Shown here: positions 3,053 to 12,325 of the stretch, piece by piece
How the letters are laid out: each line of letters begins with the position of its first letter
How positions within the stretch are numbered: position 1 is the first letter of the stretch
From: Candidatus Hydrogenedentota bacterium
GTDB taxonomy: Bacteria > Hydrogenedentota > Hydrogenedentia > Hydrogenedentales > JAJRTN01
NCBI GenBank assembly: GCA_024278275.1
Contig: JAJRTN010000126.1
Span: 1 to 39,484, forward strand
DNA length: 39,484 nt
Direction of reading: 5' to 3'
Made by a program: the position numbers and the translations under genes
The notes under the pieces: model-generated
Seen by the model: the letters and a program-made list of their open reading frames with translations, nothing else
The model's database searches: none
Told to the model about the DNA's origin: nothing

Positions 3053-3379
3053 TTACAATACCATCACCTCGGGATCCATGTCGGGTTGGGCCGGGCCGCC
3101 GCCCTGCCGGTCGATGGTCCACGACGCCGCGAAGTCCGCCGCGCAAATGGGGAAGATCTGGATGAAGAGCCGCTGTTTCCGCTGTTCCTCCTTCTCCCGC
3201 TCCCCATGTTCCCGCACGATTCTTTCGAGAGTGCGCCGAAGCGCGTCCCGCTGTTCCGGGCTCAAATCCCCCAGGAAAGCGCTGAACTGCGCGCGGATCA
3301 TGCCCGCGTCCCGGCAGCTTCGTTCCGCCAGGAGCCGAAGCCGGTCGTCGCCGATGTCATAGGCCACAAGGGTCTGCAC
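3053..3379 (-). CDS. cas2: CRISPR adaptation protein Cas2
   Basis: This 108-residue ferredoxin-fold protein dimerises between two Cas1 dimers to form the spacer integrase. The N-terminal strand LVAYDIGDDRLR carries the conserved aspartate after the first beta-strand, and RAQFSAFLGDLS matches the family's R-x-Q-x-S-x-F segment. The start is GTG at 3379, preceded by a GAGGTGA Shine-Dalgarno element. It begins 9 bp after the cas1 stop, so the two are one transcriptional and translational unit. The length is normal for the family, with a slightly extended C-terminus. The 139 bp between its stop and the csm6-like start shows no gene. Confidence 0.92.
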   Translation of the reverse strand: MQTLVAYDIGDDRLRLLAERSCRDAGMIRAQFSAFLGDLSPEQRDALRRTLERIVREHGEREKEEQRKQRLFIQIFPICAADFAASWTIDRQGGGPAQPDMDPEVMVL

Positions 3380-3388
3380 GGGCTCACC

Positions 3389-4399
3389 TCACCACGCCGC
3401 CACGTAAGGCCGGTGGGCCTGCGCGTTGAGCAACACCGCGGCTATTTCCCGTGCCTCCGATTTAATAAGGTCCACGAGCTTCGTCTCCCTCCCTTCGTAT
3501 CGCATCCGCTGATTCAGTCGCTTCAACACCCGCGTCGCCAGTTTTTTTCGACTCGCCCCGTCCAGGTGGCCCTCTTCGTCAAACGCGGGAAGCCATCCCT
3601 TCGAGAAAGACGCCACCATCACGCGATCCACCGCCATCTGGCGGAACTCCTCGATAAAATCGAATACCAGCGTCGGCTTGTTGTCCCGGTAGGCGTGCAG
3701 GAAACCCGCGTAGGGATCCAGCCCCACCACCATCAGTACGCTCCAGATGCGGGAATAGAGAATACCATAACCGTAGTTCAGGCACGCGTTGAAGGGATCC
3801 TTCGCCCCCCGGCGCTTACGCTTTTCAAAGTGCGCCGCGGCGGGCAACACCGCACGGATGCCCGACCAGTAGGCCCGTGCCGCCCGCGCCTCGCGGTTCA
3901 TCAGGGAAGTGCGGAGTTCCGACAGCGATCTCCCCGGCAGGGCCAGCATCTCCTCCAGGAGCCGGTCCACTTCCACGGACGCCGCCCGAAGCTGCTCGAA
4001 GGTTTTCGGAGCGCTTTTCTTGCGTGATTTGCCGAAGTAGCGCAGGTTGGCCGCCTGGTTGCGGAGTTTCCCTTCAAGAAAGGCCTTTGCCAGCGCCACG
4101 CCGCGCCCGTCTTCAACCGCCAGCAATTGCTGGCGGCGCAATGCCGCCCGACCAAAGGATTCCGGCGGAATCACCTTCGCGTAAGGCTCGCCCCGGTAGT
4201 TCAGGAAGGTGATCACCACCCCGTGCCGTGCCGCAAGCGACAGGGCGTCCGACGATACCGTGATGCCCTTGCCCGTCACCAGGATGTTTGTCACCTCCGA
4301 CGCCGGAACCTCCACCGCCGCCTTTCCCTTACGACGAATCACCAATCGCCGGCTGCGCTTGCCCAGCGACGTGCCAAATTCCGTTAACACCAGTTCCAT
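3389..4399 (-). CDS. cas1: CRISPR integrase Cas1
   Basis: This 336-residue integrase inserts new spacers at the leader end of the array. The catalytic elements are visible: Glu in NREARAARAYW, His in LDPYAGFLH and Asp in TLVFDFIEEFR. The N-terminus MELVLTEFGTSLGKRSRRLV is typical of Cas1. I place the start at 4399 because GGGGGAG precedes that ATG by 6 nt and family similarity begins there. The same frame stays open upstream to 4537, which would add 46 residues in which KKGWISYNGFEL occurs twice. That extension is the in-frame translation of a 37-bp direct duplication at the array edge and is unlikely to be real protein. The gene lies 119 bp from the last repeat, on the strand on which the array is transcribed. 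Confidence 0.93.
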   Translation of the reverse strand: MELVLTEFGTSLGKRSRRLVIRRKGKAAVEVPASEVTNILVTGKGITVSSDALSLAARHGVVITFLNYRGEPYAKVIPPESFGRAALRRQQLLAVEDGRGVALAKAFLEGKLRNQAANLRYFGKSRKKSAPKTFEQLRAASVEVDRLLEEMLALPGRSLSELRTSLMNREARAARAYWSGIRAVLPAAAHFEKRKRRGAKDPFNACLNYGYGILYSRIWSVLMVVGLDPYAGFLHAYRDNKPTLVFDFIEEFRQMAVDRVMVASFSKGWLPAFDEEGHLDGASRKKLATRVLKRLNQRMRYEGRETKLVDLIKSEAREIAAVLLNAQAHRPYVAAW

Positions 4400-4426
4400 C
4401 GACCACTCCCCCGTGGGTGACCTCGT

Positions 4427-4535
4427 CAGTTCAAAACCATTGTAGCTTATCCAACCCTTCTTCTTGAAGAGCATGGAGAAGGGAACGGGACCCGAGAGCA
4501 GTTCAAAACCATTGTAGCTTATCCAACCCTTCTTC
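4427..4535. repeat. 37-bp perfect direct duplication flanking a 35-bp insert, beside cas1
   Basis: Bases 4427-4463 and 4499-4535 are identical over exactly 37 bp. They start CAGTTCAAAACC and end AACCCTTCTTC, and the bases on both outer sides differ. The intervening 4464-4498 is 35 bp. The CRISPR repeat here is 37 bp and the spacers are mostly 35-41 bp, so this unit has array-like dimensions but is out of register. The right copy consists of 20 bp of cas1-side flank plus the first 17 bp of the terminal degenerate repeat. The 72-bp period preserves the reading frame, which is why cas1 appears to have an N-terminal extension. Confidence 0.9.
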
Positions 4536-6142
4536 ATCAGGTCATGGGGGGCAATGTCTCTAGACGATGCGGCACTCTTTGTGCTGCGTGAGTTTCGATC
4601 CCTTCTTCATCAGGTCATGGGGGGCAATAGCACTTCAGCGCAAAATCCTTATTGTCGCTGACTCCAGTGTTTCGATCCCTTCTTCATCAGATGGCAATAA
4701 TAGAAAAATAACCGGCGATTTACGTGAATGTCGCTGACTCCAGTGTTTCGATCCCTTCTTCATCAGGTCATGGGGGGCAATCGGACTACGTGTGCATTGA
4801 AGCGTATGCGCCCGGGGCGGTTTCGATCCCTTCTTCATCAGGTCATGGGGGGTAATTGCCAGATTAACCCAAATGCCCGCCGTAGGGTATCCTTGTTTCG
4901 ATCCCTTCTTCATCAGGTCATGGGGGGTAATAGGGTACGAAGGGAGGCTGAGCATCGATGGCAACAACGTGGTTTCGATCCCTTCTTCATCAGGTCATGG
5001 GGGGTAATTAACCTAACAAACAAGGAGAAGAAAATGGACAGCAAAACGCTACTCGTTTCGATCCCTTCTTCATCAGGTCATGGGGGGTAATATTTAAAAA
5101 GTTATCCGATTTTTCGGACTGCGATTGGTTTCGATCCCTTCTTCATCAGGTCATGGGGGGTAATGCGTGCATGGGTCAGTATTTCGCGCCGTGTGACCAG
5201 TTTCGATCCCTTCTTCATCAGGTCATGGGGGGTAATAACGCCGGAGTGGGAGCTCCATACGGACGGTGTAGGTGTTTCGATCCCTTCTTCATCAGGTCAT
5301 GGGGGGTAATTGGTACATCAACACCCACCTACCTTACATCGGCCTCGCCAAGTTTCGATCCCTTCTTCATCAGGTCATGGGGGGTAATGACCTGAGAACA
5401 TGAAAGACGTGTGTGTTTGTCAGGGCGTTTCGATCCCTTCTTCATCAGGTCATGGGGGGTAATCTCCATCGCGGACGGTGGCGAACTGGATTTGTGGCGC
5501 TTGTTTCGATCCCTTCTTCATCAGGTCATGGGGGGTAATAAACTAGGAGGATCTGGGAATATGAAAAACGTGTGTGTGTTTCGATCCCTTCTTCATCAGG
5601 TCATGGGGGGTAATGCCGGCACAGAGAGGGGATCACGATGACCAGTACCTGTTTCGATCCCTTCTTCATCAGGTCATGGGGGGTAATAGTTCGAAACGTT
5701 AAACGATTTTTCAGACTGTGAGTGTGTTTCGATCCCTTCTTCATCAGGTCATGGGGGGTAATGAAAAATGGTGCCGCGAATGTGTTGATGATGATGGAGG
5801 TTTCGATCCCTTCTTCATCAGGTCATGGGGGGTAATAATTACGGAACTGGTCTATGCGGAGCGGGTCAACGACCTCGTTTCGATCCCTTCTTCATCAGGT
5901 CATGGGGGGTAATCGTGCGATAATTGTGGGGAAACGGTGCTGATTGCCGTTTCGATCCCTTCTTCATCAGGTCATGGGGGGTAATAGGGTGGTACGCGCC
6001 GACGCAGAGGGGGAGTCATGGTAACCAGTGTTTCGATCCCTTCTTCATCAGGTCATGGGGGGTAATAGACGTCGGAAAGAATGAACGCCGTCACCTGCTG
6101 AAATTGTTTCGATCCCTTCTTCATCAGGTCATGGGGGGTAAT
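4519..6142 (-). CRISPR. Type III-A CRISPR array, 22 repeats and 21 spacers, transcribed leftward
   Basis: The 37-bp repeat reads on the plus strand GTTTCGATCC...GGGGGGTAAT. On the transcribed minus strand it ends GGGATCGAAAC, resembling the ATTGAAAC-type 5' handle of type III crRNAs. Repeat starts are 4519 (degenerate), 4592, 4669 (30 bp, contracted), 4745, 4820, 4895, 4972, 5055, 5128, 5200, 5274, 5352, 5427, 5503, 5578, 5651, 5726, 5800, 5877, 5949, 6030 and 6106. Spacers are 35-46 bp. The four full or degenerate repeats nearest cas1, and the contracted one, end in CAAT. All others end in TAAT. The degeneracy at the cas1 side and the handle orientation place the leader at the right (6143 onward) and the oldest units at the left. 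The array lies between csm5 and cas1, all on the minus strand. Confidence 0.97.
4653..4766. repeat. 38-bp direct duplication straddling a spacer-repeat junction
   Basis: Bases 4653-4690 and 4729-4766 are identical over 38 bp and differ at both outer edges. Each copy is 16 bp of spacer (TGTCGCTGACTCCAGT) plus the first 22 bp of a repeat. The intervening 4691-4728 is 38 bp. This explains why the repeat at 4669 is contracted and why the next spacer (4699-4744) is 46 bp and ends like its neighbour. If one copy plus the insert is removed, a normal repeat, 40-bp spacer, repeat order is restored. Confidence 0.88.
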
Positions 6143-6314
6143 ACGGGCTTTTCAAGGACTTACGCAGGTTTTGCCGCCGTGAGGCCCCAAGTTGTTTCAT
6201 CCTAAGATCCTCCGTGGTATGGGTTTATCGATGTCATTCGCTCCTTTTCGAATCTGGGGGTGGCAGGGGGCCGGTCCAGGCGCTCAAACCGTGTTTTTTA
6301 CCCGGTGTTTTCAT
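6129..6314 (-). other. Three abutting tiny ORFs within the leader (26, 11 and 23 codons)
   Basis: On the minus strand, 6314-6234 encodes 26 residues beginning MKTPGKKHGL, with AAGGA 6 nt upstream of its ATG. Its TGA overlaps the next ATG (ATGA), which opens an 11-residue frame (6237-6202) preceded by AAGGAG. That frame stops in TAG just before an ATG at 6200 with GGAGG 8 nt upstream. The third frame runs 23 codons and stops inside the first CRISPR repeat. Such spacing resembles translational coupling, but the peptides have no recognisable similarity and chance is quite possible. Recorded as an observation, not as genes. Confidence 0.2.
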
Positions 6315-6364
6315 GGCAAGTCCTTATAGAGGCATTTGCGAAATTGAGGTTTTTGATTCGTGCC
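6143..6364 (-). promoter_or_regulatory. CRISPR leader region
   Basis: This AT-richer stretch lies immediately upstream (minus sense) of the first repeat and should hold the array promoter and the integration-guiding sequence. Read on the minus strand it ends CTGCGTAAGTCCTTGAAAAG shortly before the repeat. A TATAAG element lies at about 6325-6331, but no good -35 box is spaced from it, so the promoter is not resolved. The leader call rests on the repeat polarity and on the decayed repeats being at the opposite end. Confidence 0.65.
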
Positions 6365-6405
6365 ATCCTGTATGTTGCGGCTAGGATAGCCGCAACATAC
6401 AGGAT
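6365..6405. repeat. Perfect 19-bp-arm hairpin between csm5 and the leader
   Basis: ATCCTGTATGTTGCGGCTA (6365-6383) is the exact reverse complement of 6387-6405, around the loop GGA. It lies 99 bp beyond the csm5 stop in the direction of transcription and just outside the leader, so it could separate the csm operon from the array. It lacks a T-run on either strand. Its central core GCGGCTAGGATAGCCGC resembles the GCGGCTGGAAGCCGC hairpin at 16084-16102, which points to a dispersed palindromic element. The flanking stretch 6406-6504 shows no gene. Confidence 0.85.
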
Positions 6406-6504
6406 CATGTGTAGGTTTCACTGAAAATCTTCTTTTCACAAATGGCACTTATAACATACCCTGTTGCGTTTTTTCGAAGGTGGTGGCCGGTTGGCGTGTG
6501 TTTT

Positions 6505-7761
6505 TCAATCTTCGAAAAGCAGGTCCACCCTGAGCCATCCCATGGGCTGCCAGCCCTTCGGCCCGCGCGCCCATTTTCGGGTTTTGGGGAAGAGGTCCAC
6601 GCCGGGGGCGCCCATGCGTTTGTTGGGCCGTCCGTCCCTGCCGCGACCGAAGGCATCGCGCATGGCCTTCACGTCTTGGGGTTGCAGCATGGGCCCGATG
6701 GTCTTGGTATGCCAGCCGGTGCCGTAGCCCAGGGGCATGCAGGCGGCGTCTTTCGCGGCGAGTTCCCGAAAGAAGCGGGCGTGGGCCTCCTGCTGCTGGT
6801 CGTGGTAGAAATCGGCTTCGATGCGTGCCAGGGCCCGGCCGTTCCGGCGCAGGGCGGCCGCGAGGGCCTTGGGGTCGCGGAGGAGGGCCACGGTTTTTCC
6901 GCCGAGGGCGCGTGCGAGGTCCGTGTCGTGTTCGAGGCGCCACGTGTCGAGGTAGCAGGGCAGTTCGACGGCGGTCTCTCCGGGCATGAGGCTTTCGAGG
7001 AGGATCTTCATGCCGCGTTTCTCCTCGAAGCCCCGGCGGGTGACGTTCATGACGCGCACGGGGGTGACGGCGAAGTGTTCGGGGCCGAGGGGGGCGGAGT
7101 CGCGGAGTACGAAGGCTTTCATGCCGTCCTCGATGACCTTGCCGAAGAGTCGTTGGTTCAGGTCTATGCCGGCCCATTGTGGTGGCCGACGGCTTCGGAC
7201 GGCCTGTTGGATTTCCCGTCCCAGGTGGAGGTGTTCGGCGAGGGCACAGGCGAGGGCGGTGCGAAGGGCGCCCTTCACGGAGGAGCCGGGGAGGAAGAAT
7301 CGGTCGAAGGGATCCTTGACGAAGGCGGCCACTTCGCCGGTGCGGTCCTCGCGGGGGGCCGGGGCCTGTTGCGGCGGCGTGGGATGCCGGCGTTCCGCCT
7401 GGCGCATGAGCCTGGCCATCCTTGGGTCAATCCTGGGGCCGGTGCGCTGTCCTCGTCCACCGCCGCCTGGCCGTTGCGGTCTCCGCTGGGGGGCCTGCCG
7501 CCGTGGTGTGGCGGGCGCCTCGCCATGGAAGGGGAGGTCGTATCGGAGGAAGTCGTCGTCCAGCTTGAGGCCCGAAGCCACGGCGTCGAGGGCGAATTGG
7601 GGGTTGTCGCGGTTTGCCTCGAAAAAGGCGCGCACGTCTTTGAGCTTGAAACGGCCCTGGTCGACGGCGTAGTCGATGGGCATGTACTTTTCCCCGGAGC
7701 CGATGTGGACGGGGGTGAGTGGCGTGAGCCTGAGCACGCCTTGAACGCGATCATGGGTCAT
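6505..7761 (-). CDS. csm5: Type III-A effector subunit Csm5 (RAMP)
   Basis: This 418-residue RAMP protein caps the head end of the Csm complex and is associated with crRNA 3'-end maturation. The N-terminal strand LTPLTPVHIGSGE is the family signature, and FFLPGSSVKGALRTAL is the conserved RAMP G-S-S-x-K-G segment at about residue 155. Between them (about residues 85-140) is an Arg/Pro/Gly/Gln-rich, probably disordered insertion absent from typical Csm5. The frame is open upstream to 8151, but I start at 7761 because AAGGAGG precedes this ATG by 6 nt. It overlaps the csm4 end by 11 bp. The C-terminus (LGYGTGWHTKTIGPML) retains the conserved glycine-rich stretch. Confidence 0.92.
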   Translation of the reverse strand: MTHDRVQGVLRLTPLTPVHIGSGEKYMPIDYAVDQGRFKLKDVRAFFEANRDNPQFALDAVASGLKLDDDFLRYDLPFHGEAPATPRRQAPQRRPQRPGGGGRGQRTGPRIDPRMARLMRQAERRHPTPPQQAPAPREDRTGEVAAFVKDPFDRFFLPGSSVKGALRTALACALAEHLHLGREIQQAVRSRRPPQWAGIDLNQRLFGKVIEDGMKAFVLRDSAPLGPEHFAVTPVRVMNVTRRGFEEKRGMKILLESLMPGETAVELPCYLDTWRLEHDTDLARALGGKTVALLRDPKALAAALRRNGRALARIEADFYHDQQQEAHARFFRELAAKDAACMPLGYGTGWHTKTIGPMLQPQDVKAMRDAFGRGRDGRPNKRMGAPGVDLFPKTRKWARGPKGWQPMGWLRVDLLFED

Positions 7762-8764
7762 GGGGCGCCTCCTTGGGAAGATGACAGGGCAGGGCAAAGG
7801 CCAGGCCGGAACGCCACACGGGGTGGGCGGTGAAAGCGGCGGGCCGCGCGTCGCGCATGTCGCCGTGGCGTGGGGCCACCGCGGGGAAGGCGCTGCCCTC
7901 CACGCACATGCGAAGGCTGCGCTTGCGCTGGTCGCTGCCGCCGGGGCCGTGTATCCAGCCGCCGCGCAGGGCGCAGTCGTAGGCGGCGGGGGCGTCCAGC
8001 ACGCCCCGGTCCACCTCGTCGCGCGTGGGGAGATAGAGACTGAGGGAAAAGAAGTCCGGGGCGTCCGCCGTACCGAAGAGGGCCGTCCGGTCCGTCCATT
8101 CCTCGATGCCGAGGAGGTCGAAGCGGCCATAGCCCACGGAGCGTTCACCACCGAGGCCCTGCTCGCCCAGTTCCTGCACGAGGCGCTGGAATGACGGGAG
8201 GTGGCCTTTTTCCAGTTCGACGAAGAACCAGGCGCCGCAGCCCTTGCCGGTATTGACGCGCAGCCCCCGCCGGTCGAAGGGGGTGGTGGCGCCGCCCGCC
8301 CGGTCGATGACCACGGCGGTGGAGAACTCCTCCACCACCAGGGCGTCGGGCGGTGCGGGACGGCCTTCCAATTCCGACGCGAGCACGGCGGCCCCGCCCG
8401 GCAGCACCCGGATCTCCGCCTCGGGCACCGCCGCGCCCCGGAGCCAGGTGGCCAGGAGTTTCTCGGAGAGGAGGGAGACGGACTTCCACCGCTTCCGGCC
8501 TTTCACGTCCCCCTCGGGCTGTTGTCCCGGGCGGTGGAAAAAGGGCTTGGGGTAGAGGAAAAGATCACGCCAGAAGGGGAAGAGGGAACTGAGGCGCAGT
8601 TCGGGGGCCCGGTCGAGGAGGGGCGACCCGGTGAGGGCGGCCACGGCGACCAGGGCGCCGTGGAGGGTGTCGGAGTGGACGAGGGCCCCGGATTTTCGCG
8701 CGCGGCCGTGGGGCGCCACGTAAAAGGGGGCCAAGGGTTCCAGGCGTACACGGTAGATGCTCAT
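7751..8764 (-). CDS. csm4: Type III-A effector subunit Csm4 (RAMP)
   Basis: This 337-residue Cas5-like RAMP binds the 5' handle of the crRNA and contacts Cas10 at the base of the complex. The start YRVRLEPLAPFYV followed by SDTLHGALVAVAALTG matches the Csm4 N-terminus, and a glycine-rich RAMP motif (GLGGERSVGYGRFDL) lies at about residues 205-220. Its ATG overlaps the csm3 stop as ATGA, and its end overlaps csm5, showing a tightly coupled operon. Length is normal for the family. No damage is visible. Confidence 0.92.
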   Translation of the reverse strand: MSIYRVRLEPLAPFYVAPHGRARKSGALVHSDTLHGALVAVAALTGSPLLDRAPELRLSSLFPFWRDLFLYPKPFFHRPGQQPEGDVKGRKRWKSVSLLSEKLLATWLRGAAVPEAEIRVLPGGAAVLASELEGRPAPPDALVVEEFSTAVVIDRAGGATTPFDRRGLRVNTGKGCGAWFFVELEKGHLPSFQRLVQELGEQGLGGERSVGYGRFDLLGIEEWTDRTALFGTADAPDFFSLSLYLPTRDEVDRGVLDAPAAYDCALRGGWIHGPGGSDQRKRSLRMCVEGSAFPAVAPRHGDMRDARPAAFTAHPVWRSGLAFALPCHLPKEAPHDP

Positions 8765-9537
8765 GCCGCCGAACCCCCGGCCCGGCCGGCCAACTGCTTC
8801 CTGAGCGCCCCGACCTGTGGCGCGGCGTCGAGGTCGCGCCCGTTGAAGGAGGCGACGGTAACGGTGCAGTTGACGAAGCGGACCTGGCCGTAGCCCCGCG
8901 AGCCCTGCCCGCCGAGGTAGTCGTGCTCCAGCATTTCCATGGCTTCGGCCACGTACTTCAGCCAGTCCAGGTCGCCCTCGCGGTAGAGGTTGAAGACCAT
9001 CTCGAAATCAAAGCGCGCGCCCGCGGGCACCCGCTCCATCTGGCGCGGCGTAGCCGCCGAGGTGATGCGGTCGATGACGACCTCCGTTTTCACCTGGCTC
9101 ATGGGCATGTCGGTGTAGAGACTGCGCTCCAGGGTCTTCGCGGTCTCTTCCGCCATCATGGCGTCGCGCACCAGGAGCCGCGTGGGCAGGCTTTCGCCGC
9201 CCAGGCGGCGGATGTCTTCGGGGGTTACGCCAAAGAGGTGGCAGATGAAGCATTCTTCGTAATCCTGAAGGTCATCGCAGACGTGGATGCGGGAGTTGCC
9301 AACACGTTTGAGCTTTTTCCCGCGATATATGCGTTACAACAGGCAGCGCATTTTGCCTTTGAGGGAAGAACCGGGAACATAGGGGCGACCGTCAAGGCCG
9401 TTGCGGATGATCGTGTTGTCCGCGCCGCCGATGGCCAGGCCGATCTCGTTCCCGCCGATGTGCATTCCCGTGACCGTCTCGATTTCGCCGCTGATCTTAA
9501 TGCGGCCCAAGTGGGTGATGGTGCCTTGTTCACTCAT
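8761..9537 (-). pseudogene. csm3: Csm3 backbone RNase, open frame interrupted by one in-frame TAA
   Basis: Csm3 forms the multi-copy backbone of the Csm filament and cleaves target RNA every 6 nt. The N-terminal part (9537-9337) encodes TGMHIGGNEIGLAIGGADN. Asp40 here aligns with the catalytic Asp32 of Staphylococcus epidermidis Csm3. It continues to PGSSLKGKMRCLL and then meets TAA at 9334-9336 (codon 68). Reading on in the same frame gives RIYRGKKLKRVG and an uninterrupted Csm3 C-terminal part to 8761, including GGQGSRGYGQVRF. So there is one nonsense codon and no frameshift, and the remainder shows no decay. A GAA-to-TAA or CAA-to-TAA substitution would explain it. It may be a real lesion, a sequencing error or readthrough. 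The internal ATG at 9171 could not restore the catalytic N-terminus. The gene follows csm2 by 15 bp with an AAGGAAG Shine-Dalgarno. Confidence 0.88.
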
Positions 9538-9552
9538 GATTTCTTCCTTTTT

Positions 9553-9918
9553 CTATTTGCCGCCCGCGGCGCGGTGGTATGCGAGAATGGCCTCGAATCC
9601 CTGGCAGAAACGGCGGAAGCGCGCCCTTCGCTGCTTATCATCGTCAGACTTGTCCACGGCGTCAATGGCCGACTGGAGTTCATCGCCCAAATCGCGAAGG
9701 TTTCTGCTTCGGGCGACGGCATAGGCGATCCGTGGCTTGAGCAGCAGCAGGGAGGGCATGTCCAGGTCCCCCGCCATCTCCATTTTCTTGATGCTGCCGA
9801 AGATGCCTCTTATTTGGCTGGTGCTGACCTGTCGGCTGATTTCCCGGCCAAAGCCTTCGGCCCATTTAATGAACTCGTTGTCGATGCCGTTCCGGACGGC
9901 AACCGCGAACTGTCCCAT
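9553..9918 (-). CDS. csm2: Type III-A small subunit Csm2
   Basis: This 121-residue all-helical protein corresponds to the Cas11-type small subunit that lines the inner face of the Csm filament alongside the crRNA-target duplex. It has the expected size and position (between cas10 and csm3). The pattern IRGIFGSIKKMEMAG followed by KPRIAYAVARSRN matches the Csm2 core (IR-x-I, then L-x-P-K/R-x-A-Y-A-x-R). The ATG at 9918 lies one base beyond the cas10 stop, so the two are coupled. Charged residues such as KSDDDKQRRARF near the C-terminus suit RNA contact. Confidence 0.9.
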   Translation of the reverse strand: MGQFAVAVRNGIDNEFIKWAEGFGREISRQVSTSQIRGIFGSIKKMEMAGDLDMPSLLLLKPRIAYAVARSRNLRDLGDELQSAIDAVDKSDDDKQRRARFRRFCQGFEAILAYHRAAGGK

Positions 9919-9919
9919 G

Positions 9920-12325
9920 TCAATGATCCTCCTTCAGTAGCAGTTCGGTCCACCGCAAGGGCAGCCCGAGCCGGTCCTCTATGGCCTCGTTGGCGTCCAG
10001 GATACGCGCCTGGATTGCCGCGATATCATTTTCCGCGTCCTTGTGGCGCTTGGCGAAATCGCGCAGGCCGTAGGTGAGCATCCAGCGCCACCGTTGCCAC
10101 CGGGCCTTCTGCTTGAGATCCTCCAGCGACAGGCCGGGCCGGGTCTTCGCCACAAAAAGTTGCTCGCGCCGGTATACCTCCCACACATCGTAGAGCCGCC
10201 GCAGGAAGGCCTTCGGCAGGGGGCCTTCGGGCTTGAGCAGAGCAAGCAGGAGGCGGTGGAAGTCGCGGAAGCGGTCCATCTCCTCGAAGCCCACGGGCAC
10301 GCCGAAGAGGGTGATGGCGTTTTTTTCGCGGCCCTTGCGAACGTATTGCTTGGCGGCCTCCTCGTATTGATGGGCCAGGTCGGCCGCGTGGCGCAGGGGC
10401 AGATGGTCGTCCACCATCGCCACGCCCCCCGAAAAGGTGAAGTTCGGGTTGAGGCCGCTGAAGTCGTCGAAACGTTCCCGCAGGTCGAGGGCGAAGTCGA
10501 TGACCCGGTTCCACGCGCCCACCACGAAGAGGTCGTCGCCGCCGGCATAAAGCACGCCCACTTCGCCGTGGTACTCCGTTTCGACCACGTGGTCCAGGTA
10601 GCCCTCGAAGAAATCCTTCAACAGGGCGCTGAGGGTGGCCACGCGGCTGAGGGAGGCGCGCTCGCCGAGGCCCGTGGCGAAGAGGGCGCCCAGGTTGTCC
10701 ACGTCGGCCCGGAACACGCCCAGCTTATTCGCGCCGGTGGATTCCTTCGCCAGTTCCTCGAAGGTTTTGATCCCGCCCTCGTTGCCCAGGGCCCAACTCC
10801 GCGCCGCGAAACGGTGTCCGTAGGAAGGGGCGGTGGCGGTACGCGGAAGCTCGTGTAGTGCTTCGGGGTCGAAATCGCCCAGTTGCATGAGCGCCGTGGG
10901 CGAAAAGTCCAGGTTCCTGAGTTCCCTTTCGAGGCTCACCTCGAAACCGAGTTCCGCGAAGAAACGGTTGAGGCCGGTCGGGCGGTCTGTAGGGGCGCGC
11001 CATGCGAGCCACTTCGCGGTGGCGATGCGTTGGCCGAGGTCCACGTAGTGGTTGCACGGGTCGCAGAGTTCCCCGTCGGCGCCGTTGCCCCCCTCGACCT
11101 CCCGGCCGCACACGGGGCACTTGGCCGCCTGGCCGCCCGTGTCCTGGAAGCCGAAGACGGCGTTGTAGTCCTCGCGGGCGATGTGGGTGAGTTTGCGTTG
11201 CTTCGCCCTGGCGGCCGCTTTGGCCGCTTCGGCCCATTGGGTGGAAAAGCGCTCCGGCCTGAAATCCGCCGCGCCCACTTCGATGCCGCCCACCTGCACG
11301 GTCAGGTCCGCGCCCACGTGGCGGTGGAGCAGACGGGAGAGGCGGTGGGCGGTCTGGTCCACGTTGGCCCCGAGGGGAAGCAGGGCGTAGAAGCGGCCGC
11401 CGCCGTTATAGATGATGCATGTCTCGGGTACGCCCGCCTCGCGGCAGACCTCGGCGGCGCAGGCATCGGCGATAAGCTGCAGGGCGAAGGAGCGGCCCTT
11501 GAGGGTTTTGGCCGCTTTGCTGGACACGATGGTGTAGAGGAAGTTCTGGATGCCCGAAAGGTCGCCGCAGACGAGGGTACAGATGGGTTCCTGGAGCACC
11601 GGCAAATCGGGGTTGCGCATCGTAATCGCGGTCCGCAGCTCCGAGGCCCTCGCTTCGCTCATGTCGTCGGCGAGAAAGCAGGCCGCCAGCGCGGCCACGG
11701 TCCGGCAGTGATCGAAGAGGCTGATGTCGGGGACGTAGGCACCGACCCGCGTGGGGGTCGCGGCAGGCACGCGGGAGGTGTAGCGGCGCATGAGCGCCAG
11801 CCAGGTGCGATGGGGAAGGGGACGGCCCGGAAAGGCCGCCACGGCCGCCACGAAGTCTTTCCACAGGGCCGCGTAGTCCGCCTCGCCGCACCGGGCACCC
11901 AGCTCCGGGAAAAAATGATCAAAATCGCCGTGCATGGCCAAGGGGAAGTAGGTGTCTCGTTGTGCGCCTTCAGCCTTGTCGGGGGCTATTCGACCGAGGA
12001 GATTGAGCAGGCGCGCGGCCTGGGGCTTGTCGGTGGCCTGCGCGGCATCCTCCATGCGTTCGCCGGAAGAAAGCCAATCCGCCAGGGAGAGGAGATAGGC
12101 CTCGCGGCTGTCGGGGTGGTGGTGCATGCGCGCCCAACTCGTCGCCTCAGCGTCCTCAAGGTGGCGCTCCAGAAACTGCCCCGTCCACAGCGTATGGGCA
12201 TAGGTGTTGGCGAAGTGTTCCGCCTCATCGTGCCCTAAGGGCCGTGGCTCCCCCGTGCGCTGCCAGAACTTCCCGATATCGTGGAGCAACCCCGCCGTTG
12301 CGATGCGAGCGACTCGAGACTCCAT
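9920..12325 (-). CDS. csm1: Csm1/Cas10, large subunit with HD nuclease and cyclic-oligoadenylate synthase motifs
   Basis: This 801-residue protein is the signature subunit of type III systems. The N-terminal HD domain is visible at residues 13-20 (LLHDIGKF) and would provide ssDNase activity. A zinc-finger region follows at about residues 400-425 (CPVCG...CDPC). The second Palm domain carries the intact GGDD at residues 595-598 (YAGGDDLFVVG), which makes cyclic oligoadenylate from ATP when target RNA is bound and so should activate the CARF-HEPN protein encoded at 1546-2913. The first-palm region has GDLSGIQNFLY. The start ATG has GGAGG 7 nt upstream. It is the first gene of the csm operon. 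Length is normal and no lesion is seen. Confidence 0.96.
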   Translation of the reverse strand: MESRVARIATAGLLHDIGKFWQRTGEPRPLGHDEAEHFANTYAHTLWTGQFLERHLEDAEATSWARMHHHPDSREAYLLSLADWLSSGERMEDAAQATDKPQAARLLNLLGRIAPDKAEGAQRDTYFPLAMHGDFDHFFPELGARCGEADYAALWKDFVAAVAAFPGRPLPHRTWLALMRRYTSRVPAATPTRVGAYVPDISLFDHCRTVAALAACFLADDMSEARASELRTAITMRNPDLPVLQEPICTLVCGDLSGIQNFLYTIVSSKAAKTLKGRSFALQLIADACAAEVCREAGVPETCIIYNGGGRFYALLPLGANVDQTAHRLSRLLHRHVGADLTVQVGGIEVGAADFRPERFSTQWAEAAKAAARAKQRKLTHIAREDYNAVFGFQDTGGQAAKCPVCGREVEGGNGADGELCDPCNHYVDLGQRIATAKWLAWRAPTDRPTGLNRFFAELGFEVSLERELRNLDFSPTALMQLGDFDPEALHELPRTATAPSYGHRFAARSWALGNEGGIKTFEELAKESTGANKLGVFRADVDNLGALFATGLGERASLSRVATLSALLKDFFEGYLDHVVETEYHGEVGVLYAGGDDLFVVGAWNRVIDFALDLRERFDDFSGLNPNFTFSGGVAMVDDHLPLRHAADLAHQYEEAAKQYVRKGREKNAITLFGVPVGFEEMDRFRDFHRLLLALLKPEGPLPKAFLRRLYDVWEVYRREQLFVAKTRPGLSLEDLKQKARWQRWRWMLTYGLRDFAKRHKDAENDIAAIQARILDANEAIEDRLGLPLRWTELLLKEDH

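Follow-up and report, generated by a model that had tools for sequence, protein, structure and literature searches.

The window, i.e., the whole stretch of 39,484 nucleotides that was analysed, carries on its minus strand a CRISPR locus of type III-A, where the order is cas10/csm1, csm2, csm4, csm5, leader, array, cas1 and cas2. The effector genes csm5, csm4, csm2 and cas10/csm1 occupy 6505..12325 (minus strand), with csm3 assigned by its position between csm2 and csm4, and the locus also includes a gene resembling csm6 and a weak match to cas6. The integrase genes cas1 and cas2 adjoin each other and are intact near both of the structures described below. The gene cas2 (3053..3379, minus strand) was recognized by TIGR01573 with 33.1 bits versus a cut-off of 24.5, while the product of cas1 (3389..4402, minus strand) aligns over its full length with 4n06 and retains the catalytic Glu, His and Asp positions. 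The leader extends approximately over 6143..6440 (minus strand), and its end, AAGTCCTTGAAAA, is common to L010, a homologous locus with the same csm5-leader-array-cas1 order. A short ORF (ATGAAACAACTTGGGGCC...) lies in the leader at about 6143-6201 on the minus strand, follows a GGAGG motif and stops within the first repeat; the L010 leader has an ATG after AAGGAG in another frame than this ORF. The same genome harbours a second CRISPR system (L048, contig C142) of type I-G, with a Cas4-Cas1 fusion and 34 copies of a 36-bp repeat.

The sense direction of the array runs from 6142 down to 4519, with cas1 beyond the trailer. The terminal, i.e., oldest, repeat (4519..4555, minus strand) is in register with the consensus and identical to it at 32 of 37 positions, its sense 3' end being decayed, and the remainder of the array (4592..6142, minus strand) comprises 20 full-length 37-bp repeats. 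The 20 undisputed spacers measure 35-46 bp with a mean of 38.6 bp. The three oldest full-length repeats have G at sense position 4 (ATTG) and all younger ones have A (ATTA). Three pairs of spacers are partly alike (5092-5127/5688-5725, 5615-5650/5986-6029 and 5389-5426/5540-5577) and look as if each pair came from one site in viruses related to each other; no viral contigs matching the combined patterns of these pairs were found. Some spacers in 4782-6105 resemble gene starts with a Shine-Dalgarno-like motif before ATG or GTG, six of 20 on the plus strand versus one on the minus strand, with p=0.09 for the ATG count. If these spacers are gene starts, the minus-strand crRNAs would pair with the starts of mRNAs, as transcript-targeting type III systems require.

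At the trailer end of the array, adjoining cas1, two copies of a 37-bp sequence enclose 35 bp (event 1), as the first-pass annotation had pointed out. The trailer-side copy (4427..4463) and the leader-side copy (4499..4535), both on the minus strand, match each other perfectly over exactly 37 bp and differ at the base beyond either end, and between them lies the insert at 4464..4498. The annotation was equally correct that the array repeat is 37 bp long and that the duplicated target is composed of 20 bp of flank and the first 17 bp of the decayed last repeat at 4519-4555, which the leader-side copy overlaps. Its statement that the insert has the size of a spacer holds insofar as 35 bp falls within the observed range, but at its low end. 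Similarly, its placement of the duplication at the end opposite the leader is true of today's array, but the events may date from a stage when the array was short. The rebuilt empty site consists of the terminal repeat and its flank, as in the distant L010 (Cas1 42% identical), where one terminal repeat without duplication precedes cas1. A putative inverted repeat remnant beside cas1 (AGGTCA...GGGGG) was not significant (p=0.26).

The 72-bp period had also been read as adding 24 in-frame codons upstream of cas1. Cas1 homologues begin at the residue matching Met 4402 of the window, thus these codons are non-coding, the open frame is a mechanical effect, and an N-terminal extension of Cas1 is ruled out. 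Just upstream of Met 4402, the true start, there is a Shine-Dalgarno-like GGGGGAG. Cas1 coding is unaffected by event 1.

An exact direct-repeat scan uncovered a second out-of-register case 120 bp from the first and absent from the earlier annotation (event 2). The duplicated 38 bp, TGTCGCTGACTCCAGTGTTTCGATCCCTTCTTCATCAG, occur at 4653 and 4729, and the trailer-side copy (4653..4690) and the leader-side copy (4729..4766), both on the minus strand, are exactly identical and flank a spacer-sized insert of 38 bp (4691..4728). In plus-strand order, the unit consists of 16 nt of spacer followed by the first 22 nt of a repeat, and the last 22 nt of the leader-side copy lie within the intact repeat 4745-4781. 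Deleting the 76 bp at 4653-4728 gives a canonical arrangement of repeat 4592-4628, a 40-bp spacer and repeat 4745-4781, i.e., a perfect 37-40-37. The inserts of both events are unique in the genome, where no other copy was found within 3 mismatches.

Apart from the intact CRISPR repeats, the pairs of events 1 and 2 are the longest exact direct repeats in the window, and thus they are not due to chance. The duplications of 37 and 38 bp compare with a repeat of 37 bp, and the inserts of 35 and 38 bp with spacers of 35-46 bp. A length of 38 as 37 + 1 arises by chance matching with a probability of 0.28, and a 37-bp stagger with a one-in-four chance match per side gives the lengths 37 and 38 with a joint probability of 0.16, versus 0.0008 for a tract of arbitrary length; the resulting likelihood ratio of about 200 in favour of a fixed stagger is only a guide, as the null is crude and was chosen post hoc. 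The duplicated units contain merely 17 and 22 bp of repeat, whereas canonical or in-register ectopic integration duplicates a whole-repeat unit. A cross-acting type I-G integrase of the same genome was rejected as the agent, because its 36-bp repeat fits the lengths less well.

The base rate was assessed with one detector throughout in the DNA around cas1 genes from the same order, the phylum of G095 and further phyla, altogether 119 array calls including the window and 4,457 repeat copies, with a few overlapping calls and a leaning towards type I arrays. In the 118 array calls other than that of the window, with about 4,400 repeat copies, this detector found no repeat-length out-of-register duplication; it requires exact matches of at least 18 bp, so that old diverged events would escape. 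Outside the window, the survey yielded simple repeats, units duplicated in tandem and some direct repeats of lesser length. In L049, a copy at the trailer end seemed similar at first sight but is a duplicated leader-array segment; at L049:11300-12430 (genome G080), short stretches of array, separated by leader-like sequence, recur in tandem, as if leader and array had been duplicated together. Odd gaps in L173, L179, L130 and L133 correspond to masked bases, decay or leader duplications. At L106:15000-15208, near-identical spacer-repeat units stand in tandem, with matches of 69 bp every 70 bp, which is an ordinary duplication of units in register.

The first-pass annotation had suggested looking for an end-to-end protospacer of 4464-4498. 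None was found for the insert of either event; the searches covered phages and plasmids with the 35-mer and IMG/VR with 18- and 19-mers. Two partial viral matches did not extend and are due to chance, a partial match of this kind being all that the insert of event 2 gave, and the array repeat was not found in viral contigs. The patterns of the ordinary related spacers were also unmatched, therefore the missing protospacer says little.

During canonical adaptation, the two ends of the prespacer attack the border between leader and repeat and that between repeat and spacer, and the repeat is duplicated when the gaps are filled (PMC9048733); ruler elements position the second attack in types I-E, I-B and II-A (PMC6895254). 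We propose, with a probability of roughly 0.77 and on the strength of two sharply bounded structures of matching length and of a survey that yielded nothing comparable, that both structures are full-site Cas1-Cas2 spacer integrations that occurred out of register and kept the stagger length. A prespacer of 35 or 38 bp, presumably foreign DNA, would have been joined to two staggered cuts with a spacing of about 37 bp, and the filling of the gaps would have duplicated the 37 bp between them. With the integrase complex placed 15-20 bp downstream (trailer-ward) of the repeat border, the unit would become half repeat and half neighbouring DNA; both attacks would be shifted in this direction with their spacing kept, by 20 bp in event 1 and by 15-16 bp in event 2. 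Each event would have left the repeat on the leader side whole, so that normal growth could go on. Ectopic integration by Cas1-Cas2, as the first-pass annotation had proposed for event 1, thus remains the best explanation and is strengthened by a second event of the same geometry, but its proof by a protospacer failed. Since neither a protospacer nor a close relative was found, the evidence argues strongly for displaced integration and falls short of proving it.

Event 1 may have taken place when 4519-4555 was the sole repeat, and event 2 when 4745-4781 was the first one. Both would then be leader-proximal acquisitions that slipped downstream in a young array, and both fit the earliest, G4-repeat phase of its growth. 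In this chronological reading, two of five acquisitions in the G4 phase were misplaced versus none of 17 in the A4 phase (p=0.04, noticed post hoc). We only hypothesize that the G4 repeat was the cause of the lost register. A reading in which this type III-A integrase sets its register independently of the stagger length, and in which the register may have been restored by the G-to-A change at the leader-repeat edge, appears quite unlikely. The related repeats in L009 and L010 also have TTA near the leader-repeat edge.

The main competing explanation, raised already for event 1 by the first-pass annotation, is decay and recombination of ordinary repeats that once stood at 4447-4483 and at about 4669-4698, where slippage or gene conversion between neighbouring repeats would have carried along 16-20 bp of the sequence next to them, before the second halves of the repeats decayed. 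The periods of 72 and 76 bp suit the array, terminal repeats often decay (PMC8047081), and the insert of event 2 starts with ATGGCAAT, which is like the repeat end ATGGGGGGCAAT with two deletions. The CATGG noted earlier within the insert of event 1 was confirmed, but this insert never stood out when the likeness of the inserts to the missing repeat halves was scored in six schemes against shuffles, genomic pieces and real spacers. The borders of identity are sharp, and in nearly all scorings the likeness of the inserts to the missing halves does not exceed chance: shuffle p values were 0.22-0.84 for event 1 and 0.04-0.85 for event 2, whose insert reached nominal significance in a single scheme (shuffle p=0.04, genomic pieces 0.12). 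Moreover, decay requires 37-38 perfect bp beside fully changed halves twice, with a repeat-length total by coincidence, its fit to the lengths is about 200 times poorer under the same crude post hoc null, and the array survey contained no such partial conversion. We therefore consider decay and recombination rather unlikely and weaker than integration.

Two further possibilities have even less in their favour. The genome is split into 200 contigs and short-read assembly of arrays is difficult, but an assembly artefact is very improbable given that the inserts are unique sequence and that misassembly of repeats usually collapses copies instead of adding unique pieces between exact ones. For event 2, two spacers from related viruses could have inherited 16 identical nt at the same end, with a loss of 7 nt from the intervening repeat, in which case the source of 4691-4728 would run on into TGTCGCTGACTCCAGT. 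The array does contain related pairs, e.g., 5092-5127 with 5688-5725; however, the likeness in event 2 stops abruptly after 16 exact nt right at the repeat border, a single repeat would need two deletions in an array that is otherwise uniform, and event 1 would be left unexplained, which makes this origin barely credible.

Displaced integration has partial parallels in known systems. The type II-A arrays of Streptococcus thermophilus, S. pyogenes and S. mutans were described as acquiring spacers ectopically (PMC7999890, PMC8047081); as here, these spacers enter at a distance from the leader end, and each brings a duplication of repeat length. In type II-A, however, the array gains a complete repeat-spacer unit, in register and at an internal repeat, while the type III-A target straddles the repeat and its neighbour. 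Non-canonical integration outside arrays under overexpression of Cas1-Cas2 (Nivala et al. 2018, as cited in PMC11788318) likewise used non-repeat sequence; from what is cited there, it took place elsewhere in the E. coli genome under overexpression, whereas the present events are natural and lie in or beside the cognate type III-A array. A third parallel is the ruler mechanism of S. thermophilus, where failed register at engineered repeats leads to a misplaced second-site attack that duplicates part of the spacer (PMC6895254). The fixed distance between attacks and the partial spacer duplication upon register failure are shared, but the S. thermophilus shifts were 1-3 bp at engineered repeats, in contrast to a displacement of 15-20 bp with full length kept and 17-22 bp of repeat in the target here. 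No description of natural half-repeat out-of-register integrations with a full stagger was found in a literature search confined largely to journals outside subscription.

The inserts are probably poor memory. That of event 1 sits behind a decayed repeat, while event 2 should yield a single crRNA in which 16 nt of the old spacer precede the insert. The half-repeat of 22 bp retains the last 8 nt of the repeat, the type III crRNA handle, and the old spacer may thus stay usable.

If displaced integration is true, two natural out-of-register products keep a 37-bp stagger with only 17-22 bp of repeat in the target, and the integrase complex, not the repeat borders, would fix the repeat length. For a type III-A system, the locus would then offer a concrete test of the determinants of register. 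In that case, misplaced spacers can also sit at the oldest end of an array, where ordinary array finders take them for decay.
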